Shown here piece by piece: positions 1 through 18,543 of a DNA stretch of 64,000 nucleotides (positions are counted from its first letter, which is position 1; every line of letters begins with the position of its first letter). Position numbers and translations under genes: made by a program. The notes under the pieces were generated by a model. It was given only the letters and a program-made list of their open reading frames with translations, searched no databases and had not been told where the DNA came from. The stretch spans positions 1 through 64,000 of the forward strand of contig NC_014472.1 of NCBI RefSeq assembly GCF_000153165.2, given 5' to 3'. Source of the stretch: Maribacter sp. HTCC2170 (lineage in GTDB: Bacteria > Bacteroidota > Bacteroidia > Flavobacteriales > Flavobacteriaceae).

Positions 1-3000
1 ACTAAAGTCCATGAAGAAGTAGCATTATCCCATTGCATCACTTGTCCATCCGCAGTACCATCTGCTATATTCTCCAACTGTACCGCATTATCTGCAATCT
101 CAGCATTGGTAATGCCATCTGCAGCAACATCCAAAGTATATGGATCGCCTGTAGTGCCCGCTCCTGAACGTGTCAAGGTCGCATCAGTTCCATTTGTCAC
201 CTCATTTCCAATAACCGCATCAGCATCATCGACATTCAATGTAATCGAACTGCCATCATCAATGGAAATATTTCCAGCCGTACCATTTGTACTGATATCT
301 TGATCATCATTATCCAAGGCACTAAAGTCTGCGGTTGCAGTTCCTCCATCTTCCAATTCAATGGTCAATGTATTCGTTCCTGAATTGAATACCGTATTGG
401 TATCGTTCAACTGTTGGTCATCCGTACTACCTGCTGCCAATTCGGCCAAGGCACCCTCTACTTCCGTAGCGGTGAAGTTGCCACCGGCATCCGTTATGTT
501 CACTTCATTTGCTATCTGGTCATCCGTACTCACATATCCACTAAGATCAACGGTTCCACCATCCTCCAAGGTCAAGGTGTTACCCGCCAAGCTCAAGGCC
601 TGGTCGTCAGTACTCACATATCCACTAAGGTCAACGGTTCCACCATCCTCTAAGGTCAAAGTGTTACCCGCCAAGCTCAAGGCCTGGTCATCAGTACTAC
701 CTGCTGCCAATTCGGCCAAGGCACCCTCTACTTCCGTAGCGGTGAAGTTGCCACCGGCATCTGTTATGTTAACTTCATTTGCTATCTGGTCATCCGTACT
801 CACATATCCACTAAGGTCAACGGTTCCACCATCCTCTAAGGTCAAGGTGTTACCCGCCAAGCTCAAGGCCTGGTCATCAGTACTCACATATCCGCTAAGG
901 TCAACAGTTCCACCATCCTCCAAGGTCAGAGTGTTACCCGCCAAGCTCAAGGCCTGGTCATCAGTACTTACATATCCACTAAGGTCTACCGAGTTGCCAT
1001 CGGCAATCGATAGGGTGTTACCGGCCAAGCTCAAGGTCTGGTCATCTGTGTCCGTATCATCCAAGTATCCACTAAGATCAACGGTTCCACCATCCTCCAA
1101 AGTCAAGGTGTTACCAGCCAAGCTCAAGGTCTGGTCATCTGTGTCCGTATCATCCAAGTATCCACTAAGATCAACAGTTCCACCATCCTCCAATGTCAGG
1201 GTGTTACCGGCCAAGCTCAAGGCCTGGTCATCAGTACTGCCCGCTGCCAATTCGGCCAGGGCACCCTCTACTTCCGTAGCGGTGAAGTTGCCACCGGCAT
1301 CCGTTATGTTCACTTCATTTGCTATCTGATCGTCGGTATCAGTTCCCACAAATGTTATTGGACTACCATTTCCATTATCGAATGTATATGTACCATCCCC
1401 ATTGTCAGAAATATCAGCTTTGTTCACTGTTTGAGGGGTGCCATTTTCATTTGTATAAGTGATAGTACCATTGTTATTATCGACAAGGTTGGTAATCGTC
1501 TCAGAAATTGTAACTGAAGCAACGTTCAAGTATAAAGCACCATCTGTTCCAAATCCTATATCATTGTTCAAATCACCACTAATCATATCAACAGTTGCTG
1601 GTGCAACAGCATCATCTTCCAATGAAATATTCAATTCTCCATCAACAATAGATAATCCATCTATTGTTTGATCATCAGTGCCAACAAATGCGATCGGCGC
1701 ACCATCCCCATTGTCGAAGGTGAAGGTGCCATCACCATTATCGGTAAGGTCTGATTTGTTTATTGTCTGTGGCGTGCCATCCTCATTCGTATAAGTGATG
1801 GTACCATCATTGTTGTCAACTAAATTAGTAACCGTCTCAGCGATTGCGGCCAAGTCGGCGATCGCATCCTGTACCGTCGTCTCATCATTTCCGTCACCAT
1901 CTACATCAATAGGACCGTTAAGGTTCACTTCAGTGGCATCCTGGTCATCGGTCCCCACGAATGTGATCGGTGCACCATCCCCATTGTCGAAGGTGAAGGT
2001 GCCATCACCATTATCGGTAAGGTCTGATTTGTTTATTGTCTGTGGTGTTCCATCCTCATTCGTATAAGTGATGGTACCATCATTGTTGTCAACTAAATTA
2101 GTAACCGTCTCAGCGATTGCGGCCAAGTCGGCGATCGCATCCTGTACCGTCGTCTCATCATTACCATCACCATCTACATCAATAGGACCGTTAAGGTTCA
2201 CTTCAGTGGCATCCTGGTCATCGGTCCCCACGAATGTGATCGGTGCACCATCCCCATTGTCGAAGGTGAAGGTGCCATCACCATTATCGGTAAGGTCTGA
2301 TTTGTTTATTGTCTGTGGTGTTCCATCCTCATTCGTATAAGTGATGGTACCATCATTGTTGTCAACTAAATTAGTAACCGTCTCAGCGATTGCGGCCAAG
2401 TCGGCGATCGCATCCTGTACCGTCGTCTCATCATTACCATCACCATCTACATCAATAGGACCGTTAAGGTTCACTTCTGTAGCATCCTGGTCATCGGTCC
2501 CCACGAATGTGATCGGTGCACCATCCCCATTGTCGAAGGTGAAGGTGCCATCACCATTATCGGTAAGGTCTGATTTGTTTATTGTCTGTGGTGTGCCATC
2601 CTCATTCGTATAAGTGATGGTACCATCATTGTTGTCAACTAAATTAGTAACCGTCTCAGCGATTGCGGCCAAGTCGGCGATCGCATCCTGTACCGTCGTC
2701 TCATCATTACCATCACCATCTACATCAATAGGACCGTTAAGGTTCACTTCAGTGGCATCCTGGTCATCGGTCCCCACGAATGTGATCGGTGCACCATCCC
2801 CATTGTCGAAGGTGAAGGTGCCATCACCATTATCGGTAAGGTCTGATTTGTTTATTGTCTGTGGTGTGCCATCCTCATTCGTATAAGTGATGGTACCATC
2901 ATTGTTGTCAACTAAATTAGTAACCGTCTCAGCGATTGCGGCCAAGTCGGCGATCGCATCCTGTACCGTCGTCTCATCATTACCATCACCATCTACATCA

Positions 3001-4193
3001 ATAGGACCGTTAAGGTTCACTTCAGTGGCATCCTGGTCATCGGTCCCCACGAATGTGATCGGTGCACCATCCCCATTGTCGAAGGTGAAGGTGCCATCAC
3101 CATTATCGGTAAGGTCTGATTTGTTTATTGTCTGTGGTGTGCCATCCTCATTCGTATAAGTGATGGTACCATCATTGTTGTCAACTAAATTAGTAACCGT
3201 CTCAGCGATTGCGGCCAAGTCGGCGATCGCATCCTGTACCGTCGTCTCATCGTTACCATCACCATCTACATCAATAGGACCGTTCAGGTTCACCTCAGTG
3301 GCATCCTGATCGTCAGTGCCCACAAATGTGATCGGGGCGCCATCGCCATTGTCAAAGGTGAAGGTGCCGTCAAGGTTGTCCGTAAGGTCTGATTTGTTTA
3401 TCGTCTGTGGTGTTCCATCCTCATTCGTATAAGTGATGGTGCCATCATTATTGTCCACCAAGTTGGTTACAGTCTCAGTGATGGCCGCCAAGTCAGCGAT
3501 TGCTTCCTGTACCGTGGTCTCATCATTACCGTCACCGTCTACATCAATAGGACCGTTCAGGTTCACCTCAGTGGCATCCTGATCGTCAGTGCCCACAAAT
3601 GTGATCGGGGCGCCATCGCCATTGTCAAAGGTGAAGGTGCCGTCAAGGTTGTCCGTAAGGTCTGATTTGTTTATCGTCTGTGGTGTTCCATCCTCATTCG
3701 TATAAGTGATGGTGCCATCATTATTGTCCACCAAGTTGGTTACAGTCTCAGTGATGGCCGCCAAGTCAGCGATTGCTTCCTGTACCGTGGTCTCATCATT
3801 ACCGTCACCGTCTACATCAATAGGACCGTTCAGGTTTACCTCAGTTGCATCTTGGTCAGCCAGGTCTGTTAGATTAACGGAAACTGAATTTCCATTTTCG
3901 ATGTCCAATGATAACATATTGGTCCCAGAATCAAAACTAAAATTCTGAAGTTGCTGATTATCAGAGGATGTTAACTCCCAAGAATCCCCATCCCAAAAAT
4001 AAATAGTACCGGTATTGGTGTTTACATATACATCACCCGTATCTGCTCCTGCCGGAGTTACCATACCTGGTGCGGTGACATCGGTTCCACTAAGAACCTC
4101 ACAATTACACTGATCTTCTAAGTTTACTGTAGTTTGCGCAAAGGCAAATCCTGAGAACAATAGAAATATCAGAATTAATATCTTTCTATTCAT
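1..4193 (-). CDS. Giant repeat-rich secreted surface protein (C-terminus beyond left edge)
   Basis: The minus frame opens with ATG at 4193 and stays open to base 1, giving about 1397 codons with no stop, so the gene is cut by the window edge. The start MNRKILILIFLLFSGFAFAQ is a clear signal peptide ending in FAFA-Q. After a short N-terminal region with two Cys (CNCE, about residues 28-30) come eight 91-residue units (DQDATEVNLNGPIDVDGDGN and so on), a ninth diverged copy near 1340-1673, then a region of 28-residue units (LSLAGNTLTLEDGGTVDLSG) mixed with ITDAGGNFTATEVEGALAEL blocks. Composition is rich in D, N, T and G with almost no Lys or Cys. I do not recognise a named family; similar repeat proteins occur in Flavobacteriia and are probably exported adhesin-like or fibre-like proteins. 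The sorting signal, if any, lies outside the window. Function is inference. Confidence 0.85.
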   Translation of the reverse strand, partial: MNRKILILIFLLFSGFAFAQTTVNLEDQCNCEVLSGTDVTAPGMVTPAGADTGDVYVNTNTGTIYFWDGDSWELTSSDNQQLQNFSFDSGTNMLSLDIENGNSVSVNLTDLADQDATEVNLNGPIDVDGDGNDETTVQEAIADLAAITETVTNLVDNNDGTITYTNEDGTPQTINKSDLTDNLDGTFTFDNGDGAPITFVGTDDQDATEVNLNGPIDVDGDGNDETTVQEAIADLAAITETVTNLVDNNDGTITYTNEDGTPQTINKSDLTDNLDGTFTFDNGDGAPITFVGTDDQDATEVNLNGPIDVDGDGNDETTVQDAIADLAAIAETVTNLVDNNDGTITYTNEDGTPQTINKSDLTDNGDGTFTFDNGDGAPITFVGTDDQDATEVNLNGPIDVDGDGNDETTVQDAIADLAAIAETVTNLVDNNDGTITYTNEDGTPQTINKSDLTDNGDGTFTFDNGDGAPITFVGTDDQDATEVNLNGPIDVDGDGNDETTVQDAIADLAAIAETVTNLVDNNDGTITYTNEDGTPQTINKSDLTDNGDGTFTFDNGDGAPITFVGTDDQDATEVNLNGPIDVDGDGNDETTVQDAIADLAAIAETVTNLVDNNDGTITYTNEDGTPQTINKSDLTDNGDGTFTFDNGDGAPITFVGTDDQDATEVNLNGPIDVDGDGNDETTVQDAIADLAAIAETVTNLVDNNDGTITYTNEDGTPQTINKSDLTDNGDGTFTFDNGDGAPITFVGTDDQDATEVNLNGPIDVDGDGNDETTVQDAIADLAAIAETVTNLVDNNDGTITYTNEDGTPQTINKSDLTDNGDGTFTFDNGDGAPIAFVGTDDQTIDGLSIVDGELNISLEDDAVAPATVDMISGDLNNDIGFGTDGALYLNVASVTISETITNLVDNNNGTITYTNENGTPQTVNKADISDNGDGTYTFDNGNGSPITFVGTDTDDQIANEVNITDAGGNFTATEVEGALAELAAGSTDDQALSLAGNTLTLEDGGTVDLSGYLDDTDTDDQTLSLAGNTLTLEDGGTVDLSGYLDDTDTDDQTLSLAGNTLSIADGNSVDLSGYVSTDDQALSLAGNTLTLEDGGTVDLSGYVSTDDQALSLAGNTLTLEDGGTVDLSGYVSTDDQIANEVNITDAGGNFTATEVEGALAELAAGSTDDQALSLAGNTLTLEDGGTVDLSGYVSTDDQALSLAGNTLTLEDGGTVDLSGYVSTDDQIANEVNITDAGGNFTATEVEGALAELAAGSTDDQQLNDTNTVFNSGTNTLTIELEDGGTATADFSALDNDDQDISTNGTAGNISIDDGSSITLNVDDADAVIGNEVTNGTDATLTRSGAGTTGDPYTLDVAADGITNAEIADNAVQLENIADGTADGQVMQWDNATSSWTL
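533..1230 (-). repeat. Seven 28-31-residue repeats (SLAGNTLTLEDGGTVDLSGY)
   Basis: On the minus strand the motif SLAGNTLTLEDGGTVDLSGY recurs seven times, mostly with 84-bp spacing, linked by STDDQA or the longer DDTDTDDQT linker. One copy near 967-1040 is diverged (TLSIADGNSVDLSGY). A block with ITDAGGNFTATEVEGALAEL interrupts the array near 704-785 and recurs at its flanks, near 428-510 and 1246-1327. These repeats belong to the same open frame as the 91-residue array. Confidence 0.9.
1674..3857 (-). repeat. Eight tandem 273-bp (91-residue) in-frame repeats
   Basis: Exactly 8 x 273 bp fit between the first DQDATEV (codon starting 3857) and the last FVGTD (ending 1674). The copies in the middle and C-terminal part (about 1690-3240) are almost identical at nucleotide level, differing at a few positions such as taccat/tgccat and cagtgg/ctgtag. 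The two N-terminal copies (about 3290-3850) form a second subtype, nearly identical to each other (for example DNLDGTF instead of DNGDGTF). This pattern indicates recent duplication or gene conversion. Each unit contains the acidic DVDGDGNDETT and DNGDGTFTFDNGDG stretches, which could bind calcium (inference). Copy number can change without breaking the frame. Confidence 0.95.
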
Positions 4194-4720
4194 GACAACG
4201 TCTTTACTAATAATGGTTTGGTGTTTCAAAATCTTTTAGTTAGTTGGTGGTTGATGTCAAACATTTAAAAAATGAACAACATCATACTAGCTGAACAACT
4301 ATTATCTATCATTTAGGAGTAAATCTTCAGTTTGTTCAAAACAAAGCGATAATAATCGCTGTTCCTCATGTAGAAAGTCATCATGTTTTTTGTTACTTAA
4401 AAACATTGATAATTTGGTTAAGTTGTTCATAATCTGGGTTTGTTTAATTTGAATCGGCAAAATTGATTTCAACGAGACATAATAATTACACTTTACAAAA
4501 TTAACTCTATACCTACCCTAGGAAAATAATTGTTGTGAAAGGGTCATTAAGTACTGTCAAGCTCTTAAAATTTGAGGTTTTCATCGACGAAATGCATTCT
4601 TTTTTAGACAATACGTTGGTCGATTACATTCATTATAGCAATACCTTACAAAGGTTTTTGTCGTAAGATATTTCCTAAAATCATTGATTTTCATAGATTG
4701 TTTTTAGTTGGTTTTTTCAA
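4194..4720. other. Gene-free spacer upstream of the giant repeat gene
   Basis: This AT-rich spacer has no coding frame I can support. It should hold the promoter of the repeat gene on the minus strand. A TAATTTTG (minus strand, 4496-4503) matches the TAnnTTTG element but lies about 300 bp from the start codon and lacks a TTG at the usual distance, so I do not call it. A small inverted repeat agcgat-aata-atcgct is at 4345-4360. No clear terminator is seen after the gene ending at 4721. Confidence 0.6.
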
Positions 4721-7700
4721 TTAGTTTTTGTTAACTCTATGGGTGATTCTTCTGTTGGTAATAATGGTGTTTACCCTTAGGGTCAAAACAGCGGAATTTG
4801 AAGTTTCAGAACTACAAATGAACATCGTATTGGATACTATTACCCTATACTCATTTCCATTGTCAGGAGCAGTTGCATTTGTAATGGTCAAAATACTCGT
4901 TGATGTATCACTATAGATCCCTGAATCGGTCAGATCTACCCAGCCTGAACCATCATCTAACTGCCATTGATAGGTATCTGAATTCGAGGCTATTACCTCT
5001 ATTGTTATATCACAACCCGGACAAACATTGGTATTTGGTGGTTGGGTGCTGATACTGGGAGCAAGACCTACTTCCAGATGGTCATAGGTACTGTCTGTAT
5101 CAATATCCGCAGGAACAGGGTAAGTTGCTCCTGTTACACGCCCAAAACCGTCTGTTGCTGGTGGATTACCTGTCGCATAGTATTCATTGTCCCCTCCGTC
5201 GGCATTTGCGTTATTATAGGCCTCATTCGCATCACTACAGCCATCATCATCACTATCCGTATCCAAAAAATCCGCGGGATCGGTACCATCAGTATCTAAA
5301 ATTGTATAATTTATGGCTCCACTTTCTGCTGCAGTTTCTACAACATTGGCCAATCCATTGGCCCCGTAAGGTCCATTGACCACACCATTGGAATGTGATT
5401 GACTGTGTCCTGCTTCTACTGCATCATAGATTCCGTCATTATCGCTATCCAAATCCAAGTGATTGGCAATCCCATCAGAATCGGAATCTATTCCATAGGT
5501 TTCCGGGTTTACATAATTGGTGAGGCAACTAAATTCTATATTATGCTGCCTACCCGAGGCTGAGGCACCTGCAACTCGTGCTACCGCACCAACGCGAATG
5601 GATATTTCGGATTGGGAATTATAATTTACCCCATAATTTACCTCCGGAAAAGTATTACCAGCTCCTGGAAATTCATTGATTCCAGCCGTTCCCAGGACCC
5701 ATGAACCATCTGTGGACATTGTCAATTCCGTAGGATTGGAAATGATATAACTTGTGGGATTATCACTCCAAATTTGTTCTCCATAGTTGGAGTTACCGTC
5801 AATATCATTGAAATTGGTAAAGAATTTAGAAATGACTACTGGCGCACTACCTCCAGAATTCACAAATTGAATCCTATACTCGATATACCCTTGGTCCCCT
5901 ATATTTGTAAGGTTAAAGGCTGTTTGTGGTCTGAATGAGGCCGGCTCCGAACCATTATTATCAATATTGGCAACTGTTGCATTGAAAGTTTGATCAATTG
6001 TTACCAAGGCATCTGTGCCTGTAGTAATATTTGATATTCTATAAACAGCACCTAATTGCAAGGCGGTACCAGAAACCAAGGTGGCAGCGGAGCTAAAATC
6101 CAATGTCGTTTCCCCAGTACAATCCTGTTGTGAGTTACTGATTATGGTATTAAGCTCATCAGCATCTAGTAAACCATCATTATCATCGTCAAGATCAACC
6201 CTGTCAGCCACAGTATCATTATCAGAATCAGGGAAAACGGTAATATAGATTGAGCCAGTAGCCTCTTCTGAGGTAAACGTACAATTGGCGTTATCCCTCA
6301 TGGTGTAGGTAAAACTGTCATTCCCAAAAAAACCAGTTGTTGGAGTATATGTTACTGTACCATCTCCATTCAATACCGATACTCCATTAGATGGTTGTGT
6401 AACGGAGATTACCTCCAAAGGTTCTCCTTCGGGGTCAGAATCGGCACCATTTCCATTATCAATCAATGGATCTAACGATACAAAGCTATTTTCCACAACC
6501 GTTGTATATTCATCGGTTGCCGTGGGCGGTTGATTGGCTGAATCTGGAAATACATCCAATAGATTGATAGAACCGTTATTATAATCATTAGGTATTAATT
6601 GTTGTCTTACCACCACCCTGCCTGAAGCCGTCCTTGGAAATGATACCTCAACAACAATAGGGGTCAAGGGACCACTTGGTAGTCCAAAATGAATTCTTCC
6701 GGGGCCCTGTGTACCATGGCCAAATCCACCATTTACCTCTCGGGTACCAGAAATTACATTTCCATCACAATCCAATATTTTTGCAGTTGCCCCAACACCA
6801 AAACGTTCTTCTGTATTAATCAAACCAAATGCATCACGATCTTCAACAATATCGATATATAAATGATTGGCCTGATTTGCCATTAAATTATTTATGTACA
6901 ATCTATTATTTCCTGAACGATTTGTGTACAAATCCAAATCGCCATCTTGATCAATATCAATAAACGTACAACCTTCACCTCCAGAATTGCTAAATGTTAG
7001 GCCAGAATCCACAAAAGACATTGCTCCACCTCCATTGTTTATTTGGTTTAAGAACAACTTATTGGCACCTCCTGCCAAAAAAATATCGATATCCCCATCG
7101 TTATCAACATCACCACAGGCCAGACCTTCAATTTGACCTGAAAAACTAATTGGAATTCCAGTCGCTGCGCCTAAGCCCGTCCATGTGCCGTCACCATTGT
7201 TTCTATGTATTTGGTTGTTCCCATTTTCAGTCCAATACATATCAAAATCGCCATCATTATCAAAATCATAAAAAGCTACGGCACCTTTGTTGTTATTGTT
7301 GGCATCATCAATATTTACCCCATTTTGGAAAGTTCCGCCAACATTCGTGAATAAATCGACCTGATCTCTTTTCCGTACCACAATGTCTACCCAACCATCA
7401 TCATTAAAATCAGTTGCCGATCCATAATCACCATCAGTTGCATCCTGTACTAATCCCAGTGGCCATGTAGTTGAATTTAAAACATCATAGGGCGGATTGG
7501 GACTATCTGCTTTTCTGGTAACATGGGTAAAATTACCCGTACCGTCGTTTTGTAGAATATCAATCCCAAAATTATGATTGTCAACAAACAGATCTAGATC
7601 ACCATCACCATCATAGTCCAATGCCCCAGCACCTTCAGTATTCATACCGTCGGTCATAGATGTAAATCGTTGATTTGGAACTGTACCTCCTGTTCCATTC

Positions 7701-8113
7701 CCAAACCTATTGGTAGCCGGGTCTTGAAGATAAATTCTTAAATCATTATGCTTATTTCTGAAAACGTCTGGATAACCGTCGTTGTTGAAATCAACGAACA
7801 ATACTGTTCGTTCTAGACTGCCACCATTAAAATCAGGGGCAAGTGTTCCTGTAACATCTGTAAAGCTTCCTCCATCATTTCTATAGAGCTTTCCATTTCC
7901 CTGTGTATTGACTACAAGATCAAAATCCCCATCCAGATCATAATCTGCCCAAGCATGTCCACCATCCTTATTGCCGCCTAAATTCAAGCCATATGCGGCC
8001 GCACTTTCAGTAAATGTCGTTTGAGAAAAGGTTTCTCCATGATAAAATATGAGTAAACTCAATATAATACCAAAAGTTAACTTGGATAAAAATGATTGAG
8101 AATTTCTTCTCAT
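4721..8113 (-). CDS. Secreted FG-GAP/VCBS-repeat protein with ASPIC/UnbV, TSP3 and Ig-like domains
   Basis: This 1130-residue protein begins with a signal peptide (about residues 1-31, ending ETFSQ). Residues ~32-430 hold repeated D-x-D-x-D-G-D-x-D motifs (DYDLDGDFDLV, DFNNDGYPDV, DVDNDGDIDIF) typical of FG-GAP/VCBS beta-propellers that bind Ca2+. An ASPIC/UnbV domain follows (~440-520, FGVGATAKI...GRIHFGL), then a cadherin-like/Big_9 domain (~526-628, NQPPTATDEYTTVVEN), TSP3 repeats, a ~205-residue domain bounded by two Cys (~665-870), more TSP3, and an Ig-like domain (~1018-1110). It ends TIITNRRITHRVNKN, not in a recognisable T9SS type A or B sorting domain. Likely an exported, calcium-rich surface protein; the ligand is unknown. 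It lies 201 bp downstream of the next gene upstream and may be transcribed separately. Confidence 0.88.
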   Translation of the reverse strand: MRRNSQSFLSKLTFGIILSLLIFYHGETFSQTTFTESAAAYGLNLGGNKDGGHAWADYDLDGDFDLVVNTQGNGKLYRNDGGSFTDVTGTLAPDFNGGSLERTVLFVDFNNDGYPDVFRNKHNDLRIYLQDPATNRFGNGTGGTVPNQRFTSMTDGMNTEGAGALDYDGDGDLDLFVDNHNFGIDILQNDGTGNFTHVTRKADSPNPPYDVLNSTTWPLGLVQDATDGDYGSATDFNDDGWVDIVVRKRDQVDLFTNVGGTFQNGVNIDDANNNNKGAVAFYDFDNDGDFDMYWTENGNNQIHRNNGDGTWTGLGAATGIPISFSGQIEGLACGDVDNDGDIDIFLAGGANKLFLNQINNGGGAMSFVDSGLTFSNSGGEGCTFIDIDQDGDLDLYTNRSGNNRLYINNLMANQANHLYIDIVEDRDAFGLINTEERFGVGATAKILDCDGNVISGTREVNGGFGHGTQGPGRIHFGLPSGPLTPIVVEVSFPRTASGRVVVRQQLIPNDYNNGSINLLDVFPDSANQPPTATDEYTTVVENSFVSLDPLIDNGNGADSDPEGEPLEVISVTQPSNGVSVLNGDGTVTYTPTTGFFGNDSFTYTMRDNANCTFTSEEATGSIYITVFPDSDNDTVADRVDLDDDNDGLLDADELNTIISNSQQDCTGETTLDFSSAATLVSGTALQLGAVYRISNITTGTDALVTIDQTFNATVANIDNNGSEPASFRPQTAFNLTNIGDQGYIEYRIQFVNSGGSAPVVISKFFTNFNDIDGNSNYGEQIWSDNPTSYIISNPTELTMSTDGSWVLGTAGINEFPGAGNTFPEVNYGVNYNSQSEISIRVGAVARVAGASASGRQHNIEFSCLTNYVNPETYGIDSDSDGIANHLDLDSDNDGIYDAVEAGHSQSHSNGVVNGPYGANGLANVVETAAESGAINYTILDTDGTDPADFLDTDSDDDGCSDANEAYNNANADGGDNEYYATGNPPATDGFGRVTGATYPVPADIDTDSTYDHLEVGLAPSISTQPPNTNVCPGCDITIEVIASNSDTYQWQLDDGSGWVDLTDSGIYSDTSTSILTITNATAPDNGNEYRVIVSNTMFICSSETSNSAVLTLRVNTIITNRRITHRVNKN

Positions 8114-8314
8114 GGTTGTGTTTTTTAAAACCGAAGCTCTTATGAAATAGGCAATTACAGTTTTATTGGTCTTATAAAGATTAAATCTTTTTCGGATGTG
8201 TTAAAATTATTGTTGTGAAGTTTCAATAATCAGACACTACGTCCTTAAAACATGTTGTTTGTCGATTAGGCCCCTACAAATAAGGCTTGGGTAAGAATTG
8301 GAAAGTAGATACTA

Positions 8315-11300
8315 TTAATTACCACTAACCCTATAAGTTATTCTGCGATTAGTGATTATTGTTCTAACCTTTAGAATACTCATCGGTGAAAACTCAGATG
8401 TTGAATTTGAGATTGTCGCCGTTGCGGTAATATAATCCCCAATTGATACTCCTGAAACTATAGGAGTACTAAACTCAAACAGATTGGTATTATCGGTATT
8501 ACCATCAACATCTGTATACGAAGATGTTCCAGCTGCCAAATCAGCTCCACTACCTTCAATAACCGTACCTAGATAGATTTGCCCCTCACCGTAATCTGTG
8601 GATAAACCCAGTTCGTTATCCCCTTCAGTTGCTGTACCTTCATTTACATCGGTCAAAAAGAATTCTAGGGTTGCACCAGGTCGTGCCCAGCCTTTAACAA
8701 CAAAATTTGAACCAGAAATATAAGCAGTTGTTATAATTGGGAAATTGAGACCTCCGTTGGGTCCATTATCTGAGTCACCATTATCGTTCAATGTTACACC
8801 ATCCTGATCAAAGTCGATTCCAAGAGCGGGAACGGAGGTACCATTCGCATAAAAAGAATTTTGTGAGATCAAATTCCCTGAACTGTTATTTACCAACTCT
8901 AATCCTGCTCCTCCATTGGTATGGATTATGTTTCCCGTAACAACGGCATCGTCATCACCCAAAATAATTCCTGCTAGACATCCCCCTCCCATAAACCCAG
9001 AAGTAGTTACGGTATTCTGGTCAATGGTTATAGCAGTCGATACATTTTCCGCATCGACCCCAAAACCTCCTGAATTTTCGATCAAATTAGTCTGAATCAC
9101 AATGCCATCCCCATTTTTCACTTCTATCGAAGGCTTACAAGCAGAATCACCATTATTCGTAAAATGATTGTTGGTAATTGTTGTAGATGTACCTCCGTCT
9201 ATTAATATGGCCGCTTCACCAGAGCCACTAAAATAGTTCTGAGAAATAGTCGCCTCTCCATCTTTGATTTCAACCCCGTATTCCATATCCCCTGTATTAA
9301 CTCCCAAGGCATTTACCGCTATCAAATTCTCTAAGATGTTTAAGGAACCATCATTAACTTGTATGGCCGTTTTGTCGTCTAGATATACAGCTAAACTCCG
9401 TATGGTATTCATAGTACCATCATTTCTAAATACCTCTTTTGTATCTCCTCGAACTTGTATTTCGGGTAGATTATAGTTTGGTAGTACGGTGGCCGAAATT
9501 CCAACAACGGATCCACCGGAGCCAATTGTACCCGAATTTGAATCACCAGAATAAGCTGTTTGTGTCCTTCCGTCTATAATAGTATTCGAACCGGTTAATT
9601 CAGTTAGCTGCGCTCCATTTGATATAAAAATATCAAAATATCCACTGGCATAATTGGTATCTGGGGTTCTTCCCAATGGGTCGCCCGATGGAGGAATCAT
9701 GAATATAGAAGTATCTTCCCCTGCAACAGGATCAAAAATGGCATTGGCTTCAATGTCCAATCCAGTTTCCCCAATTTCATTGGAATTCACAATAAACTGC
9801 TCCAAGGAACCTTGACCAGATTCATTCGTATTTACAATGGTATTAAAGTTGAATCCAAAATCTAGCCCTGCGACACCTTCATTTGTAATAGTTGCCGCCC
9901 CTATTGTTTGAGCACCTGTTAATACACCGGCTCCTGTATCTGTTGCCGAAGGATCGGCACCACCAACTTCATTGGGCCGTTCAACTAAAGTGCTCGCTAT
10001 ATATTCTGTTTTAAACGTTTGTACAGGTAAACAACTTCCACAACCACTACCACCAGGCCTTGATGATGCTACAGTACTGCTTACTACACGTATACTATAC
10101 GTACCGTTAATCATCCCAGCAAAGACATAGGTTCCACTGGCATCAGTAATTTGAGTGTCTATCAAGGTACCTACATTGTTATAAAGCTCAACAGTAGTAC
10201 CTGGTAACCCCACTCCAGACGCACTGGCATAATTTCTACCAGCACCACCACCGTAATTCACATCCTCAAAAACACGACCTGTTATTAAATTTGAAGGTAC
10301 TTTAAGAACGACCGCATTCATAATCACAAAATCCTGACCAACATTAACTTGGGTGGTTGCACTCGTTTCTCCCGGGAGTATATAGGCTGATACATCATAA
10401 GTGTCCAAATCAACCCCATAGGTTGCTGTGTTATTTACAATAGGCAAGGTAGTATTATCATAATTCGTAGAATTAAACGGATTATTTACAGTAGTACCGT
10501 TATTATCACCATCACCAGCCAACCTATTGGTACCAACAAGTGGCGTTGTAAATTGCAAGGATTCATTGTTCGCCAAAGTCTGATCCCCTTCCCAAGAAAG
10601 TGCCGTTGTTTTAGATCCTGTTGACCCAATAGCATAAAATCCGCTTAATGTAAATGTTGAAGAGGAATTGCTATTACCATCAAAACCCTGGTACAGGTTG
10701 ATAGTTGATGCCGGTAAACTGGTATCAGTGTAAAAAATCATTAAGGACCACCCTCCTAATACCGTAGCTGAATTACAATAAGTACTTGAGGTGTCAACTG
10801 TTAGTCCTGAAAAGTCGTATACATTAGTTGATGGATTGGCAATACCATTAATAAGACCCGTAACATCAGCATAATAACCATGAAAAGTACGTGTCGTCAA
10901 TGTAGTCATATATACAAGCTCAGCATTGATGGTAGCACCTTCAAATGTCACCTGGGTATCCATTGCTGCCCCGGAGTGCGCCCAGTACAAAATCGCTTTT
11001 TCAATAGTACCTGCAGCTGGTATTGGTGAGGATAACGTATTTGATGAAGTCGTAGTTATTGCACAAGGATTACCTGTATTTGGTGATGTCCTCAATGTTC
11101 CCCCAGTTGATGTATAATCCATATAACCATCAAGTTCCTCGAAAAGGGCCAAAGGCGTATTTCCCAAAACCACTTCATCGTCCACAATTGTTCCTGTGGC
11201 TGTATCAGTTATAATAACCGATGGGTCTGAAACCGATGTGAATTGAATTGAAAAGTTCTTATCACCATCAAAAGAAGTATTGTCTAGAATCGGAACTGTT

Positions 11301-11920
11301 ATTAGTTCGGTATCCCCACTCGTTCCATTAAAACTTAAAATGCCCGTATTCAAGGTATAATCAGTACCCGCTATGGCCGTACCATCATTGGTAGTAAAAT
11401 TAACCGTGAAAGAACCACTTGCGTCCAATCCTACATGAGTTGCTGTGAATGTTGCCGTTCCGGCGTTTTCGTTTACAGACACATCTGCAATTGAAATTGT
11501 GGGACTTGGTGCAACGATATCAAAGGATACAGTAGAATTTGACCCTCCTCCTAAATCAGAATCAACAATTAAAATGCCATCTTGATATACCCTTACGTAG
11601 GATCCACCTCCATTCCAACCATCACCATACGTATCCTGCAAATAAATATCATAATTGGTACCATAAGGTACGCCAGTATAAGTCTGTGGGCTACCAATGT
11701 TATTGTAAGAGTTGTTTCCTGAACCATTATAACAAGCGGCCGGATTACAGATCCGCGACCCAATCTGGGTATTAGATGGATCCCTAAAGGTAACTCTATT
11801 TTCCGATGACCAATTGGGCCAATTTACCTCAATAGTAATAGTTGCTTGAGCATTCACACCAGCAGCTATTAACATGAAAAGTAGAACAATACTAAAATTT
11901 GGAAACTTTAATCCCCTCAT
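8315..11920 (-). CDS. Secreted Calx-beta / SdrD-B-like / parallel beta-helix surface protein
   Basis: This 1201-residue protein has a signal peptide (about 1-24, GVNA-QA). An N-terminal beta-rich region contains the DTYGDGWNGG motif often seen in flavobacterial exoproteins. A Calx-beta domain (~138-249, ISIADVSVNENAGTATFTAT ... GTIVDDE) follows. Residues ~250-540 form an unnamed beta-sandwich region, ~543-690 a SdrD-B/Cna-B-like domain (GRVFEDVNYGGG), and ~780-1020 right-handed beta-helix repeats (NHFTNNGD, NLIENSGG, NIIHTNGG). The C-terminus is TIITNRRITYRVSGN, closely matching the neighbouring FG-GAP protein. Probably an exported surface protein or adhesin; no enzyme motif was found. The 228-bp gap upstream, which contains a terminator, suggests its own promoter. 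Confidence 0.87.
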   Translation of the reverse strand: MRGLKFPNFSIVLLFMLIAAGVNAQATITIEVNWPNWSSENRVTFRDPSNTQIGSRICNPAACYNGSGNNSYNNIGSPQTYTGVPYGTNYDIYLQDTYGDGWNGGGSYVRVYQDGILIVDSDLGGGSNSTVSFDIVAPSPTISIADVSVNENAGTATFTATHVGLDASGSFTVNFTTNDGTAIAGTDYTLNTGILSFNGTSGDTELITVPILDNTSFDGDKNFSIQFTSVSDPSVIITDTATGTIVDDEVVLGNTPLALFEELDGYMDYTSTGGTLRTSPNTGNPCAITTTSSNTLSSPIPAAGTIEKAILYWAHSGAAMDTQVTFEGATINAELVYMTTLTTRTFHGYYADVTGLINGIANPSTNVYDFSGLTVDTSSTYCNSATVLGGWSLMIFYTDTSLPASTINLYQGFDGNSNSSSTFTLSGFYAIGSTGSKTTALSWEGDQTLANNESLQFTTPLVGTNRLAGDGDNNGTTVNNPFNSTNYDNTTLPIVNNTATYGVDLDTYDVSAYILPGETSATTQVNVGQDFVIMNAVVLKVPSNLITGRVFEDVNYGGGAGRNYASASGVGLPGTTVELYNNVGTLIDTQITDASGTYVFAGMINGTYSIRVVSSTVASSRPGGSGCGSCLPVQTFKTEYIASTLVERPNEVGGADPSATDTGAGVLTGAQTIGAATITNEGVAGLDFGFNFNTIVNTNESGQGSLEQFIVNSNEIGETGLDIEANAIFDPVAGEDTSIFMIPPSGDPLGRTPDTNYASGYFDIFISNGAQLTELTGSNTIIDGRTQTAYSGDSNSGTIGSGGSVVGISATVLPNYNLPEIQVRGDTKEVFRNDGTMNTIRSLAVYLDDKTAIQVNDGSLNILENLIAVNALGVNTGDMEYGVEIKDGEATISQNYFSGSGEAAILIDGGTSTTITNNHFTNNGDSACKPSIEVKNGDGIVIQTNLIENSGGFGVDAENVSTAITIDQNTVTTSGFMGGGCLAGIILGDDDAVVTGNIIHTNGGAGLELVNNSSGNLISQNSFYANGTSVPALGIDFDQDGVTLNDNGDSDNGPNGGLNFPIITTAYISGSNFVVKGWARPGATLEFFLTDVNEGTATEGDNELGLSTDYGEGQIYLGTVIEGSGADLAAGTSSYTDVDGNTDNTNLFEFSTPIVSGVSIGDYITATATISNSTSEFSPMSILKVRTIITNRRITYRVSGN

Positions 11921-12148: not shown

Positions 12149-14089
12149 TTACTCTAAAATAATAAACTCAGATCTACGATTCTTCTCATGTTCTATCCCA
12201 AAACAACGAACTCCGTTTGCACATTTGTTTATCAGTTTAGTCTCTCCGAAACCTTCACCTAGCAAACGACTTTCTAAAATGCCTTTAGATATCATATAAT
12301 TCACAGTGGACTCAGCTCTTTTTTGAGATAACCAAAGGTTGTAAGCATCTCGTCCACGACTATCTGTGTGCGAATTCACCTTTATCTTTAGACTGGGATA
12401 CTTCTCCATAGCCGCAATAACTTTTTGTATTTCGATTTCAGAATCACTACGGATGTTATATTTATCAAAATCAAAGTATATGGTACTTAATTGCAACAAT
12501 TTGGCCAAATCATCACCAAAACCAGCTGATACCCGGTCTCTTTCTAGATAGAAATCTATAATATTTGCTTTTCCTGCCGATTTTCCCAAATACTCCTCTG
12601 AAGGAACATACCCTTGCATTAAGGCCCTTACAAAATTACCTCTATTACAATCTAAGGACAGATTGTATTTACCCTCCGAATCTGTTATGGTTGTTAGGAT
12701 TTCTTCATTATCCTCATTGATAACTTTTACGGTAGCACCGACCAAAACCTCATTGGTTATTTTATCCCTTACTGTTCCAGTAACTGCCTGTACACATTCA
12801 AGTTTCAAAGGTATATTTTCAATAAATGCATAAATGTCATCTGACCCTACTCCATTTTCTCTATTAGAAGCAAAATATCCTTCCCGAGAATCTTCTTTAA
12901 AAATAAATGTAAAATCATCCATTTTGCCATTAACTGGTTTGCCTACGTTAACAACAGCGCCATCATATTTGTTGAATTTTATCTTTGTTGCAAAAACATC
13001 AAGCCCTCCAAGTCCGGGATGACCATCTGAAGATAAGTACAAGATTTCCTCTGATGTAACAAATGGGAACGTTTCTCTTGCCTCAGTATTAATATTACTC
13101 CCCAAATTCTCAGGTGTCCCAAAGTTTCCTTCACTATCGATAGCCACCTTAAAAATGTCAGATTCTCCAACGGTTCCAGGCATATCCGAGGCAAAATACA
13201 ATGTTTTTTCATCTGGACTGAATGAGGGATGTGCAGTTGAATAGGAGTCACTATTAAAGGGTAACTCCTCAATATTTGTCCATTCGCCATCGACCAGAGT
13301 TGCTCTTAACAGTTTGAGTCTAACCATACCCTTTTCATCTGTAATGTACTTGCCATCCTTGAAATTATTTCTTGTAAAGTACATGTACTTTCCATCGGCT
13401 GTGGTAATGGAGGTTGACTCATGTAATCTTGTATTAAGATTCTCTCCAAATTTCAAAACCAAATTATCATCCAAACTATCTGTATTAACACTATACAAAT
13501 CCAAAAAATCTTTTGAATTCCATGTATGTCTATACTTAGCTAAATTTCCTGTGTCGCGATCTGAAGAAAAAATAAGTCCCTTTTTATAATAGGTAGGTGC
13601 AAATTCAGAATAGGGAGAATTGTATTTAAAAGAAGTAATTTCATATCTGCCTGAATTTTTCTTTATTTCCTCCAAGTAGTCCTCCTTGCTACTATAAACA
13701 CCCGCCCGGACGTCGTCAGCAGTTATTTTACTGAATTGAGCCATCAACTCTTTTGCTCCTTTGTAATCACCTAAGCTTTTTAGGGTTTGAGAATACCTGA
13801 AATAGTATTCGGGGCCAGTTTCTGAACTATATTCGGCTAAAAGTCTTTTATAAATCTCGGAAGCCTCTTTATAATCAGCATTAAAATAATATGAATTGCC
13901 TAGATTCTTTAGTAACTCAGAAGAAACAAATCCTTTATCAAGGACCTTCTTATATATATCTATCGCCGGACTAAACGAATATTCATTATATTTTTCATTG
14001 GCCTTCGTATATAACCTTTCTTGAGCATTTGAGAAGTATCCTACAAAGATCACTACAACAATAACAACTAAGAGTTTTCTTTTTATCAT
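12149..14089 (-). CDS. OmpA-family protein with TPR, PD40 propeller and carboxypeptidase-regulatory-like domains
   Basis: This 646-residue protein has a signal peptide (about 1-22, YFSNA-QE). TPR-like helices follow (~25-130: TKANEKYNEYSF, LLKNLGNSYYF), then PD40/WD40-like propeller repeats (~165-430: APTYYKKGLIFSSDRD, HPSFSPDEKTLYFASD), a CarboxypepD_reg-like beta domain (~440-515, VTGTVRDKITNEVLVGATV), and an OmpA C-terminal peptidoglycan-binding domain (~530-640, NSHTDSRGRDAYNLWLSQKR). It starts 11 bp after the PorP/SprF gene and ends at a strong terminator. This architecture resembles flavobacterial OmpA proteins co-encoded with PorP/SprF, thought to couple secretion or surface proteins to the cell wall. 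Membership in the T9SS module is inferred from context. Confidence 0.92.
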   Translation of the reverse strand: MIKRKLLVVIVVVIFVGYFSNAQERLYTKANEKYNEYSFSPAIDIYKKVLDKGFVSSELLKNLGNSYYFNADYKEASEIYKRLLAEYSSETGPEYYFRYSQTLKSLGDYKGAKELMAQFSKITADDVRAGVYSSKEDYLEEIKKNSGRYEITSFKYNSPYSEFAPTYYKKGLIFSSDRDTGNLAKYRHTWNSKDFLDLYSVNTDSLDDNLVLKFGENLNTRLHESTSITTADGKYMYFTRNNFKDGKYITDEKGMVRLKLLRATLVDGEWTNIEELPFNSDSYSTAHPSFSPDEKTLYFASDMPGTVGESDIFKVAIDSEGNFGTPENLGSNINTEARETFPFVTSEEILYLSSDGHPGLGGLDVFATKIKFNKYDGAVVNVGKPVNGKMDDFTFIFKEDSREGYFASNRENGVGSDDIYAFIENIPLKLECVQAVTGTVRDKITNEVLVGATVKVINEDNEEILTTITDSEGKYNLSLDCNRGNFVRALMQGYVPSEEYLGKSAGKANIIDFYLERDRVSAGFGDDLAKLLQLSTIYFDFDKYNIRSDSEIEIQKVIAAMEKYPSLKIKVNSHTDSRGRDAYNLWLSQKRAESTVNYMISKGILESRLLGEGFGETKLINKCANGVRCFGIEHEKNRRSEFIILE

Positions 14090-14100
14090 TTATAGTTACT

Positions 14101-15054
14101 TTAAAAGAATCTAGGTGATACCAAATTCCGAAATGATTTCACCAATTCATATCTTAAGAACACCTCAAATGATCCATCATTAAACTGAGTTCCTCCTAAG
14201 TCCGTTGTTTCCCTATCATAAGCCAATCCAAGCATCAACTGATCAGAAATCTGAAAACCAACCATTCCACTTATGGCAGCATCCCATCTATAGGCTGCTC
14301 CAAATGTGAATTTGTCATTGAACATAAAACTAGCCGATAAATCAACTTGCAGAGGAGCTCCACCTACTACCTTTGTCAAAACGGCCGGTTTAAATTTTAG
14401 ATTGCCATTAAGGTCAAGAACGTAACCAGTTATCATATAGAAATTAATACGCTCCTTGGACAAAAATTGAACACTATTAGAGTCTGTTTGACCATTATCA
14501 AAATGCTCTGTTTGTAATAGATTCGGCGCCGACAAGCCTGCATAAAAGGAATTTGTATGGTAATAAACACCAACACCCACATTAGGGGAAAATTTATTTT
14601 CAATATTGTCAACACTAATGGGTTCAACATCAAAATTGCGGAGGCCTTGAAAATCAAGATTCAATAAATTACCTCCTGCCTTCAGACCAAATGAGAGCTT
14701 ACCATCCAAAGAAACATCTATGGTATAAGATACAATCGCATCGAAATAGGTCTCTTGTACAACCCCATCACCAATTTCATCATTGACTATTGAAATACCA
14801 TATCCTAATTTACTGTCTCGAATAGGAGAATGAAGATTCAAGGTTTGGCTCTTTGGTGCACCATTTAGGCCTACCCATTGGGATCTATAGAGCGCTGCAA
14901 TACTCAATTGTCCTCTTGATCCTGCATATGCTGGATTTACACTCATTGTATTGAACATGTATTGAGTATATTGAGCATCTTGCTGAGCAGTAATTTCATG
15001 TAAGGATAATATTACAACCAATATAAATCCTAAAATGCTATTTCTTAACCTCAT
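14101..15054 (-). CDS. PorP/SprF family type IX secretion system outer-membrane protein
   Basis: This 317-residue protein has a signal peptide (1-23, LHEITA-QQ) followed by the family hallmark QYTQYMFNTMSVNPAYAGSR and alternating beta-strand segments typical of an outer-membrane barrel (FGAAYRWDAAISGMVGFQIS, LMLGLAYDRET). The length matches the PorP/SprF family. It sits 15 bp after the TSP3/type-B-CTD gene and 11 bp before the OmpA gene. SprF-like proteins are known partners for secretion of proteins with type B sorting domains, so this copy probably serves its upstream neighbour (inference from context). It is likely a paralogue rather than the core PorP, since the core gliding/secretion genes are not here. 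Confidence 0.95.
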   Translation of the reverse strand: MRLRNSILGFILVVILSLHEITAQQDAQYTQYMFNTMSVNPAYAGSRGQLSIAALYRSQWVGLNGAPKSQTLNLHSPIRDSKLGYGISIVNDEIGDGVVQETYFDAIVSYTIDVSLDGKLSFGLKAGGNLLNLDFQGLRNFDVEPISVDNIENKFSPNVGVGVYYHTNSFYAGLSAPNLLQTEHFDNGQTDSNSVQFLSKERINFYMITGYVLDLNGNLKFKPAVLTKVVGGAPLQVDLSASFMFNDKFTFGAAYRWDAAISGMVGFQISDQLMLGLAYDRETTDLGGTQFNDGSFEVFLRYELVKSFRNLVSPRFF

Positions 15055-15069
15055 AAGTAGTTTAAATAA

Positions 15070-18000
15070 TTATTCACTAACATAAATATACCCACTATCG
15101 GTAATATTTTTCATATCATCATTTTGGTATTCAAAGATATAAAAATATACGCCCGAAGGGAGATATTCACTGGCACTTACGGTTGACCTGCCTTTAGATC
15201 TACCATCAAATATATTATTCTGATTGTTATAATTATTACCCTCATAAACTGCAACGCCCCATCTGTTGAAAATCTTGAGGGAATTATTCTTAGCATTTTC
15301 AACACCCCTAATGAATAAAAAGTCATTCTTGCCATCATTGTTGGGGGTTACCATCTGATTAATTTCTATTCCTATTTGGATAACTTCACTGACCAAAACC
15401 ATGACCCTTGCTTTGTCACAATTATCCGAATTGGCTATTTCGCAGATTGTATATTCAATAGAATATGAACCAGTAGGGGTAAGAGGTGTCACAATCACGT
15501 TTCCATCTGAATCTATTGTCAAAGTGCCGTTTGGCTCTGAACTAATTATCACATTATCTAGATTGACAGGTTCACCATTCAGAGTATCATTATCCAACAC
15601 ATTAATATCTGAAATAACTCCTCCAATAAGACCATCAACAAAAATATTGGTATAATCATCATCGACGGCATCTATCGGTATGACGACTGGGAATATAAAT
15701 ACAGTAGGGTCATCAGGATTACCATCTCCATCTATGTCAACATTTGTAGGGTTATCTGGATCATCTGAAAGGCTGCTTATTGGACCTATATCCGGAATTG
15801 TTCCCAAAACCGTTGCAGAATTACTAAAACTGCCATTATCAACATCTTCTTGTGTAATGATATAAGTTGCCCTAAATGTAGTATCATCGATGGCTCCTGG
15901 CTCTAATATAGCTAAAGGACCTCCCAAAACAATGACCAGTGGATCGGTAATGGTAATACTACTAATAGGTACAGTACCTATATTTGTTATTATAAACGAA
16001 TAATCTATTGTTTCCCCTACTTGGACAAGGCCATCGCCATTCTCATCGTAAAACTCGTCAACTTTTAAGACGGTTATATTTGCCATATCGTCGGTAGGGT
16101 CTAAGTAATTCGGTGTGCCATCACCATTGCTATCATCATTTGTTGGATTACCATCACCATCAGAATCCTCATCAGGCGTTTCTATCCCATCACCGTCATC
16201 ATCAAGATCCCTATAATTTACATCCTCTGTTCCATCTGTATCAGGCAAATCATTCTTGGGATCATCGATTTCATCATTAACATCGAAACCATCATTAACA
16301 TCTGCGCCTTCATAACCATCATCAAGACCATCACCATCAGTATCAACACCCGTATAAACTTGGTCGGGAAGTCCATCAAAATTGAAGTCATTACCTTCAT
16401 TATTGTCTGGAACCAAATCATTATCACTGTCCATGTCAAGATAATCAGGTACATCTGTACCATCGGTATTGACCGGAATCAAACCATTTGGATAAGCAGA
16501 ATTAACACCATTATTTGCAGCATATGTAACCTCATCATCATCATTTGGAGCAATATAACCATCTGTTGTCTGCATCTCTACATTATCAGGAATACCGTCA
16601 TTATCTGCATCGATGTCCAAATGGTTCGGGACGCCATCAGCATCGCTATCCGTTGGATCTGTCAATGGATTATTATCATTGTCAAAGTTTGGATCCTCGG
16701 TTGTATCCAATATACCATCATTGTCATCGTCCAAATCCACTTCATCAGGAACTCCATCACCATCAGTATCAAGTCTATCATCTGTAGGGTCTAAATAATC
16801 AGGTGTGCCATCGCTGTCAGTATCATCATTTGTGGGATTACCATCACCATCAAAATCTTCTTCAGGGGTGTCTATCCCATCCCCGTCATCATCCAAATCT
16901 CTATAGTTCACGTCCTCAGTACTGTCGGTATCCGGTAAATCATTGGCAGGATCATCAATCTCGTCGTTCACATCGAAACCGTCATTCACATCAGAGCCCT
17001 CATAACCATCGTCTAGGCCGTCTCCATCTGTGTCAATACCCGTATAGTACTGATCAGGAACACCATCAAAATTGAAGTCATTACCCTCATTATTATCTGG
17101 CACCAAATCATTATCACTGTCAGAATCTAGATAATCAGGTTCATCAGCTCCATCAGTGTTCACAGGGGTCAAACCATCGTCATCGACACCTTCATAGGCA
17201 TCATCAAGTCCATCTTCATCACTATCATTCCCTGTAGGAGGAACATAACCATCAGTTGATTGACCTTCTACGTTATCCGGAATTCCGTCATTGTCAGCAT
17301 CTAAGTCAACCCTATCAGGTAATCCATCATTATCACTATCAACATCAGTACTAAAAGTAATTGTCTGTGGATCAACAAAATTATCAAGGCAAGAAAACTG
17401 AATTCCTGATTGCCTAACAATGGTAGAGAAATTAACAGGGTCTTCAGTCTTGATTCCAAATCTAAAAACGAATGTCGATATATCAAGAAACTCAACTGCA
17501 ACATTTACAGTTGGGTGCGTATTAAATATTCCGGAATATTCTTTAGAACCCCCATTTATCAACAATCCCCCCGAGGTATTGTTTACATCTATCTCATTGG
17601 GATTATCTAATGTATAACTGGCAGGGTTATCAAATCGATTGAACTCCTGGTATTGTCCATTACCGTCCACATCAATGAAGTTCGCAATCAATTCTTCCAG
17701 AACATAAGGTTCTGTTGTCCCAGTACTCACGAATGAAATCCTTAAATCAACATAAGGCATTTTATTGTCGTCTGTAGTAGTAAATTGAATTTCTGGTTTA
17801 AAAAATTCTGAATCTATTGAATTCTGATCCAAAACATCTATTCTTGCACTATTTATTTTCTCAATATCAATTAGAGCATCTATTCCGTTTGCCACATTAC
17901 TTATTCTATAAATCGCACCTTCGCTATATGCGGAACCAGATTCGAGTACGGGAGGTGAAGAAAAAGCTAGTTTTGGTACTGTATCACAATCAAAATCAGT

Positions 18001-18543
18001 TTTAATTATGCTTGATTCGTTTTTATCCAAAATCCCATCATTATCTGAATCTAAATCCAAGTAATCAAATACGCCGTCATTATCTGTGTCTATGGGATCC
18101 AATCCAAGATTGCTACCAGGAGTTATTTCATAAATATCATCAATACCATTACCATCAGAGTCAATCCCTGACAATTCAACATAACCGGCTATTGATTGTG
18201 CTTCAATATTATCCAACATGCCGTCATTGTCAGAATCAATATCAAGAAAATCAGGTATGCCGTCCCCATCCGAATCCGTCGGATTCGTCACAGGATTATT
18301 GTCAAAATCAAGATTGGCATCTTCTACAGAATCAAGTATACCATCATTATCATCATCGATATCAACGGAATCTAAAACGCCATCGCCATCAGTATCAATA
18401 TCAATATCCATCATACTGATATCCATACTTTCAGAACTAGCATATACAGAACTCACACTAATAGCAAGCGAACCAAAAGCCATAAAAAACTTCAGACTTC
18501 TTCTAAAAATTTGTTTAATAAAAGGGTATGTATAATTTTCCAT
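15070..18543 (-). CDS. Secreted TSP3-repeat surface protein with T9SS type B sorting domain
   Basis: I chose ATG at 18543 ([16 protein letters not shown]...). A TTG four codons upstream is possible but less likely. The 1157-residue product has a signal sequence (~15-36, [17 protein letters not shown]), then many thrombospondin type 3 repeats ([19 protein letters not shown]), a two-Cys domain at ~186-394 homologous to one in the 4721-8113 protein, and long acidic TSP3 arrays including a duplicated ~115-residue block. A DUF11-like domain ([17 protein letters not shown]), an Ig-like domain ([17 protein letters not shown]) and the C-terminal type B/gliding-motility-associated domain (~1059-1157: [32 protein letters not shown]) follow. 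It is the first gene of the operon with PorP/SprF and OmpA. Predicted Ca2+-binding cell-surface protein exported by T9SS. Confidence 0.93.
16088..17130 (-). repeat. Two ~350-bp imperfect copies of a TSP3 block
   Basis: Within the type B protein, the block from [20 protein letters not shown] to [10 protein letters not shown] (about 115 residues) occurs twice, at about 16776-17130 and 16088-16440, roughly 689 bp apart. The protein sequences are near identical, while the codons differ at many synonymous sites, so this duplication is older than the 273-bp array near the left edge. Confidence 0.85.

Follow-up and report, generated by a model that had tools for sequence, protein, structure and literature searches.

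A short C-terminal tail shared by unrelated secreted proteins of Flavobacteriaceae and its association with an F-domain

Two neighboring secreted proteins with a common C-terminal tail

The first 64,000 nucleotides of contig NC_014472.1 of Maribacter sp. HTCC2170 (the window in what follows) contain two neighboring genes that encode unrelated secreted proteins ending in a shared tail of 15 residues. Here we describe this tail and the domain with which it co-occurs, which we call the F-domain. Protein 1 (4721..8113, minus strand, 1130 amino acids) has a signal-peptide-like start followed by FG-GAP repeats, Big_9, Ig_3 and the tail, and protein 2 (8315..11920, minus strand, 1201 amino acids) has a signal-peptide-like start followed by Calx-beta, SdrD_B, a beta-helix and the tail. 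The shared tail on two unrelated proteins that had been noticed in the initial annotation is borne out by these domain assignments. The tails form the end of each open reading frame (ORF), on the minus strand: TIITNRRITHRVNKN in protein 1 (codons 4724..4768) and TIITNRRITYRVSGN in protein 2 (codons 8318..8362). Their common end reads TIITNRRIT(Y/H)RV and is followed by three residues. Twelve of the 15 residues are identical and 10 of these 12 have different codons; the earlier count of 11 identical residues, nine of them recoded, omitted the last Asn and is corrected here. The window contains two matches to the degenerate DNA for IITNRRI, whereas 100 shuffles gave none. A third tailed gene, which escaped the exact-pattern search of the genome, lies away from the window (L261:7118-8995) and ends in IISNRRITYRVNKN.

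The order of genes on the minus strand of the window is type B gene, PorP/SprF, PorE/CHU_0125-like OmpA, protein 2, protein 1 and fiber gene. The type B gene (15070..18555) encodes a protein with a type B C-terminal domain (CTD) of the type IX secretion system, T9SS (TIGR04131, PF13585). It is followed by a PorP/SprF family protein (14101..15054; TIGR03519, PF11751) and by an OmpA protein (12149..14089) that resembles PorE/CHU_0125 with scores below both curated cut-offs; OmpA genes of this type are frequent upstream neighbors of tailed genes. The fiber gene runs over the contig start. Its N-terminal 1409 residues, a repeat shaft built of 84- to 273-base tandem repeats, occupy 3..4229 (minus strand), and the C-terminal F-domain (..INVVFVVK) maps to G000:C1:3863522-3863833, beyond the window; judging by position and sequence type, the two halves are presumably joined across the contig start. 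Plus-strand ORFs at 361-4229 (five of 90 residues in series) are an antisense shadow of the fiber repeats and not genes. Directly after the fiber gene the same genome encodes a type B-like protein (670 amino acids, L262:10977-12989) and an SprF-like protein (L262:10018-10980).

Conservation, position and structure of the tail

Across Flavobacteriaceae the tail has the consensus (V/I)-I-T-N-R-x-I-T-(Y/H/F)-R-V plus about three residues and caps unrelated last domains. A degenerate ITNRRIT pattern matched 77 of 397 genomes of the family, with about 124 match rows against about 21 for the reversed control (hand count). We chose 80 regions from these rows, leaving out rows with degenerate codons that spell Ser; further pattern matches in G340, G001, G388 (two) and G217 (one) are not among the 80, and in loci L068, L080, L101 and L102 the DNA match falls in no motif-bearing ORF. 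When the 80 fetched regions and the window were examined, 97 of the 98 pattern ORFs carried the motif 4-8 residues from the stop, which is the terminal position expected in the initial annotation. In a named genome collection, at least 111 ORFs stop 2-6 residues after ITNRRITYR, and among the matches listed the distance is exactly four residues in 96 of 111 tails. Eight ORFs among the matches listed lack a terminal ITNRRITYR: one of them, in an Oscillospiraceae contig, is a frame attributed to chance, and in the other seven, of which five belong to contigs named Aquimarina, the motif is followed by a conserved additional domain of ~110 residues. Locus L036 provides an eighth ORF of the latter kind. 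The loci with the extra domain, all in Aquimarina-type genomes, are L160:689-5875, L115:5848-7329, L126, L142, L181, L197, L211 and L036. Most copies of this domain end in GC(V/I)(T/S)F(Y/F)(K/E)(L/I); three proteins scanned gave no Pfam or NCBIfam match for it, and a relationship to the F-domain was rejected (hhalign probability 0.3%).

A profile of the canonical tail matched seven of 236 genomes of the order, six from the same family and one from a second family; the lone second-family match lies in a 48-residue frame and is taken as chance. Signal-peptide-like starts, defined by a lax rule, were found in 104 of 107 tailed ORFs, as anticipated for carriers of the motif, yet also in 260 of 417 other ORFs.

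Because the motif itself served to retrieve loci L034-L113 and L114-L227, tail conservation in them is inflated or true by construction. This applies to the tail identity of 0.88 in 109 ORFs, which is inflated by motif-based fetching, to the Asn present in 193 of 193 tails, which the counting rule itself demands, and to the invariant run of alignment A5. Homologues of protein 2, positions +7 to +9 and the neighbors of F are free of motif selection. A search with protein 2 minus its tail located 28 homologous sites in 27 of the 239 genomes of the family. In 26 homologues the tail comes directly after, and core identity is 0.90 as compared to 0.55 in the preceding 39 residues. Ile, Thr, Asn, Ile, Thr, Tyr and the second conserved Arg are each present in all 26, and the fifth core position is variable (R in 21, K in 2, and N, T and Q). 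In G191 the protein 2 homologue lies within a longer protein and the tail has moved to the end of that protein; in G218 the frame of the homologue continues into Calx-beta repeats up to the contig end. Outside the searched pattern, Arg after the aromatic residue was found in 96 of 96 tails, Tyr/His/Phe in 90 of 96 and Val in 89 of 96. Chance and a recent DNA copy were both rejected as explanations on the basis of the shuffles (0 of 100), the control pattern, the different codons and the tail-free homologue test; the earlier proposal of selection at the protein level thus holds, given the codon differences and the 26 homologues from the tail-free search.

In the AlphaFold model of the last 120 residues of protein 1 (30 sequences), the Ig domain has a predicted local distance difference test score (pLDDT) of about 95, and the last 18 residues lie outside the Ig fold, without secondary structure, at a pLDDT of 63-71. 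Since the tail is conserved yet does not fold with its own domain, it resembles a binding motif. The tail often comes after a V/L-rich strand, for example that of an Ig-like domain, and structural constraint might keep it simply as the final strand of whichever domain precedes it. We consider this very improbable, because in a set of 29 diverse tailed C-termini the domains that precede the same tail include Ig_3, Ig_7, HYR_4C, DUF11, cadherin-like and beta-helix matches, and because the model places the tail beyond the Ig fold.

No Pfam or NCBIfam model matches the tail, and its profile has no match among PDB sequences. Models of the T9SS type A (TIGR04183/PF18962) and type B (TIGR04131/PF13585) CTDs found no match in proteins 1 and 2 or in the 29 diverse tailed C-termini (200 amino acids each), and the type B control, 15070-18555, was detected. 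Identity of the tail with a type A or type B CTD is therefore rejected. The initial annotation had likewise seen no such domain in either protein. The tailed C-termini also have no NCBIfam match to type C (ChiA-type) CTDs, in a scan that ran without a type C positive control. At 15 residues, unstructured in the protein 1 model, the tail falls short of the general size of T9SS CTDs (about 100 residues or more). A literature search with the tail and F-domain sequence strings found nothing relevant.

The F-domain and its genomic association with the tail

The F-domain is a C-terminal domain of ~100 residues that ends in ...INVVFVVK and has no library name. It is hosted by long collagen-repeat or other-repeat genes, or by proteins of about 200 residues; the collagen domain (PF01391) was found in three of three F-domain proteins scanned. 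At L264:9494-10132 and L269:9685-10320 the F-domain constitutes a separate gene of ~210 residues adjoining a long repeat protein with the end (I/L)EFMFTV. The last Lys of F is invariant in 15 of 15 sequences, some of which were chosen by that ending. F matches nothing in Pfam or NCBIfam above chance level, and its sole match among PDB sequences is 4j8q (E 0.28). When the F model was compared to the PDB with Foldseek, collagen XV/XVIII trimerization domains (3n3f, 9bnb, 3hon, 3hsh) occupied ranks 1-3, 5, 7 and 8, with matches over ~50 residues, template modeling (TM) scores of 0.51-0.57 by target length, and probability up to 0.99. These ranks, which are not significant alone, agree with the location of F at the ends of collagen-like chains, and we infer that F may be the tip of a trimeric stalk. 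A comparison of the F model with viral folds, which gave one match with E 9e-4 and TM 0.18 and many uncharacterised or tail-fiber-like names, was judged uninformative. The F profile is positive in 13 of 395 genomes of the phylum, all from the same order.

Profiles applied to the 239 genomes of the family found the tail in 43 and F in 51. All 43 tail-positive genomes are F-positive, as compared to eight of the 196 tail-negative genomes. The Fisher test for this association (p 1e-39) treats related genomes as independent, and we place weight on the co-occurrence pattern and not on this p value. The 105 tail matches divide into 34 located within 30 kb of F, 12 further off on the same contig and 59 on other contigs. 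In eight genomes at least one tail shares a contig with F at a distance of more than 30 kb; two of these eight, G150 and G176, have no tail at all within 30 kb of F. Among 12 genomes of the window's genus the tail is present in nine and F in 10, with F in eight of the nine tail genomes.

Eight F-positive genomes have no canonical tail. Four of them (G094, G030, G220, G014) carry an ITNPM/ITNPH variant on the gene adjoining F, which ends in VITNPMLPSRAKQ, VITNPMLPSKAK, LITNPHIYQRVKNN or LITNPMIYQKVD. In new neighborhoods the gene adjoining F ends in IITNRGITYRVKN (G689), IITNRMITAKPNSN (G644), VISNPMLPANAQ (G486), VISNKNVTQKIIR (G591), VITNPMIYQRVKSN (G712), and VVSNKMITPTVK or IITNPSLTRKIK (both G656), and pairs of F and a variant tail also recur in a second family. 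Across 14 divergent F stretches with 164 closed ORFs, the loose motif [VILMA][IV][TS]N, which was devised after the ends had already been seen, occurs in the last 18 residues of 12 ORFs, 11 of which are F neighbors; the corresponding background is 1 of 522. The tail Asn is retained in all 11 variant tails. In G656, from the second family, an ORF of 658 residues located 334 bases upstream of the F gene (L298:6702-8678) has by eye a type A-like end; type A cargo was not searched for. Also by eye, where an F-domain has a Cys ahead of its last strand, the adjoining tail seems to have a Cys just before the core (L274, L294, L296, L299, L300 against L271, L275), and several Cys-bearing tails adjoin F-domains without Cys; as far as sequences can indicate, these Cys residues seem to be possible partners in a disulfide.

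Profiles for type B, SprF and OmpA match in G094, G030, G220, G014 and G712, and a type B gene is present in G689. None of the three matched in the fetched stretches of G117, G196, G644, G486, G591 and G656 or in those of the main loci of G143 and G080. Because pairs without these genes recur, F together with the adjoining tailed gene appears to be the smallest recurring unit, with type B, SprF and OmpA genes as an accessory of some clades. SprF or OmpA as an obligatory neighbor of the tail is weakened by the main loci of G143 and G080 and by the five second-family stretches, where neither was found by profile in the stretch fetched.

The divergent loci also bear on the possibility that an enzyme cuts or joins the tail, which would then be a signal for processing or covalent attachment, with F marking the same surface structure without contact. 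The near-fixed side chains outside the search pattern (Arg after Tyr/His/Phe in all 96) seemingly go beyond the needs of a loose contact and speak for such a signal. However, inspection of the divergent loci by eye revealed no enzyme gene recurring beside the F and tail pair, the eight internal motif copies show no obvious cutting, and no hydrophobic helix comes after the motif, unlike LPXTG, PEP-CTERM and GlyGly-CTERM signals as commonly defined. We regard this possibility as improbable.

Genomic neighborhoods were mapped around the tailed genes by a single rule, which found tails in 74 of 81 loci, 108 in total; this stricter rule left seven loci tail-less, at least two of which (L070, L105) do hold tails. 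The 74 tail loci include a type B gene in 54 cases, OmpA in 49, SprF in 44, and any of the three in 62. Three settings recur: type B - SprF - OmpA - tail gene(s) - fiber; type B (about 2500 amino acids) - tail gene - ATP-binding cassette (ABC) ATPase - permease - uvrB; and tail genes by themselves among unrelated genes. The neighborhood gene names prfC, uvrB, ABC ATPase and permease were assigned by eye. Loci L043, L050, L051, L055, L056, L064, L081 and L085 show the ~2500-residue type B protein, the tailed protein, the ABC ATPase and the permease, often with a further type B gene, and uvrB. The existence of the second and third settings means that the partner of the tail must act in trans.

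The frequency of T9SS-related genes in these neighborhoods brings in the main rival to a docking role. In this rival reading the tail would be a further type of CTD, a minimal sorting signal of the T9SS that is read by one of the SprF-like shuttles of the operon, and F proteins would be cargo of the same system in their own right. The presence of a type B, SprF or OmpA gene in 62 of the 74 mapped loci fits this, as do the signal-like starts of the tailed proteins and the lack of a CTD match in the 29 diverse C-termini. Type B CTDs are described in the literature as paired with SprF shuttles (PMC12618676, PMC9143113, PMC10202324, PMC12635249, PMC10994853); the cognate shuttle is needed and is often encoded next door (PMC12618676). 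The SprA translocon gene, found in 20 of 20 genomes tested, agrees with this rival too, but does not discriminate between it and docking, since T9SS export of tailed proteins is compatible with both. CTD lengths are about 100 residues for type A and 150-235 for type B (PMC12618676), as compared to 15 residues, unstructured in the model, for the tail. Moreover, the motif may sit 120 residues inside a protein, and the fetched stretches around the F and tail pairs of G143, G080 and the second family contain no type B, SprF or OmpA gene; the same holds for G117 and G196, where the tail is doubtful. We therefore judge a T9SS sorting signal to be unlikely, albeit less so than the other alternatives.

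A possible docking role for the tail

The reading that we favor, by a little over even chances, is that the tail is a linear C-terminal docking peptide that joins diverse secreted proteins to an F-domain stalk. Unrelated secreted, adhesin-like proteins would bear the tail as a free extended end after the last folded domain. The likeliest receptor would be the F-domain, as the C-terminal part of a secreted, probably trimeric stalk protein, which would be a long repeat or collagen-like fiber in the window's clade and often a protein of ~200 residues elsewhere. Tailed proteins from the fiber operon and from distant loci would plug into the stalk on the cell surface, and the type B/SprF/PorE-like genes beside the operon may anchor the stalk in clades that have them. 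Physical binding, the trimer, the surface location and the export route are parts of this reading that we infer. The strict partner of the tail is the F gene and not a transporter or protease, and therefore docking or anchoring fits better than sorting. The initial annotation had suggested a distinct sorting, anchoring or processing signal; the present results uphold a distinct signal but do not show sorting or processing.

It is also conceivable, although we would not expect it, that the tail and F are halves of a split fold, in which a strand contributed by the tail would complete the trimeric stalk tip. In such a fold an isopeptide bond between the Asn of the tail (26 of 26) and the terminal Lys of F (15 of 15) may seal the junction. 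If true, this would be a SpyTag-like natural system in which any adhesin could be loaded onto a collagen-type fiber.

Several observations weigh against a docking role. The co-occurrence of tail and F is partly due to operon linkage and common descent, and the counts carry no tree correction. In the window's genus, G968 and G971 carry F, located at a contig start, but have neither a tail nor a protein 2 homologue, and G970 has tails and no detected F, its contig ending inside the fiber gene. In the family sample, the neighbor of F in G117 and G196 has a doubtful end, PVNRN(I/V)RSYF; G103 and G222 have no tail found and no protein 2 homologue, with contig breaks inside the fiber region; and G218 is negative for both the tail and F profiles, with no tail before the contig end. 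The F model is mediocre (mean pLDDT 65) and its structural match is not significant, with E 0.14 or worse. The motif was not expected to be internal when the tail was first described, and it is internal in eight distinct ORFs, with the ~110-residue domain behind it. Finally, a second type B-like and SprF-like gene comes after F in seven of seven F loci read, and SprF could therefore be the receptor in that clade.

The tail may be compared with several known systems. It resembles the PEP-CTERM, GlyGly-CTERM and LPXTG signals in being a short conserved end shared by many unrelated surface proteins and in having a co-occurring partner gene. Those signals include a membrane helix and are paired with a protease or sortase, whereas the tail is helix-free and its partner is a stalk-type protein. 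To our knowledge, the short C-terminal tags described so far differ in kind from a tag that lacks a helix and pairs with a collagen-type stalk. C-terminal modules that dock onto a stalk or scaffold are found in collagen-tailed acetylcholinesterase with ColQ and in dockerin-cohesin pairs. The likeness in both cases would be docking by a C-terminal end onto a stalk, which for the tail is proposed by analogy, and we know of no sequence relation between the tail or F and either system. F differs from the collagen XV/XVIII trimerization domain, to which its fold match has E 0.14 or worse, in being about twice as long.

Among T9SS signals, the type B CTD with PorP/SprF and a PorE-like anchor is similar to the tail in being a C-terminal determinant, in the same bacteria and in the same operon in most mapped loci. 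It is unlike the tail in its matches to TIGR04131/PF13585 and in its length of 150-235 residues (PMC12618676); the tail has 15 residues, no match to these models, and F as strict partner. Type A (TIGR04183) and type C CTDs resemble the tail in their C-terminal position on Sec-exported proteins. They differ from it in being regions of about 100 residues, with five motifs in type A (PMC10202324); the tail gave no match to the type A model and, in the scan without a type C positive control, none to type C.

The tail and F are unnamed in the family libraries and literature searched, and since neither has a match in Pfam or NCBIfam, the proteins that carry them are at present unclassified at a key part. 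If the docking role is correct, it names the recognition element of a surface assembly in 43 of 239 Flavobacteriaceae genomes, the clients of which could be listed from sequence alone. A short tag with a natural receptor would be a useful tool for protein coupling, and a stalk-docking route would be added to the known routes of T9SS anchoring.

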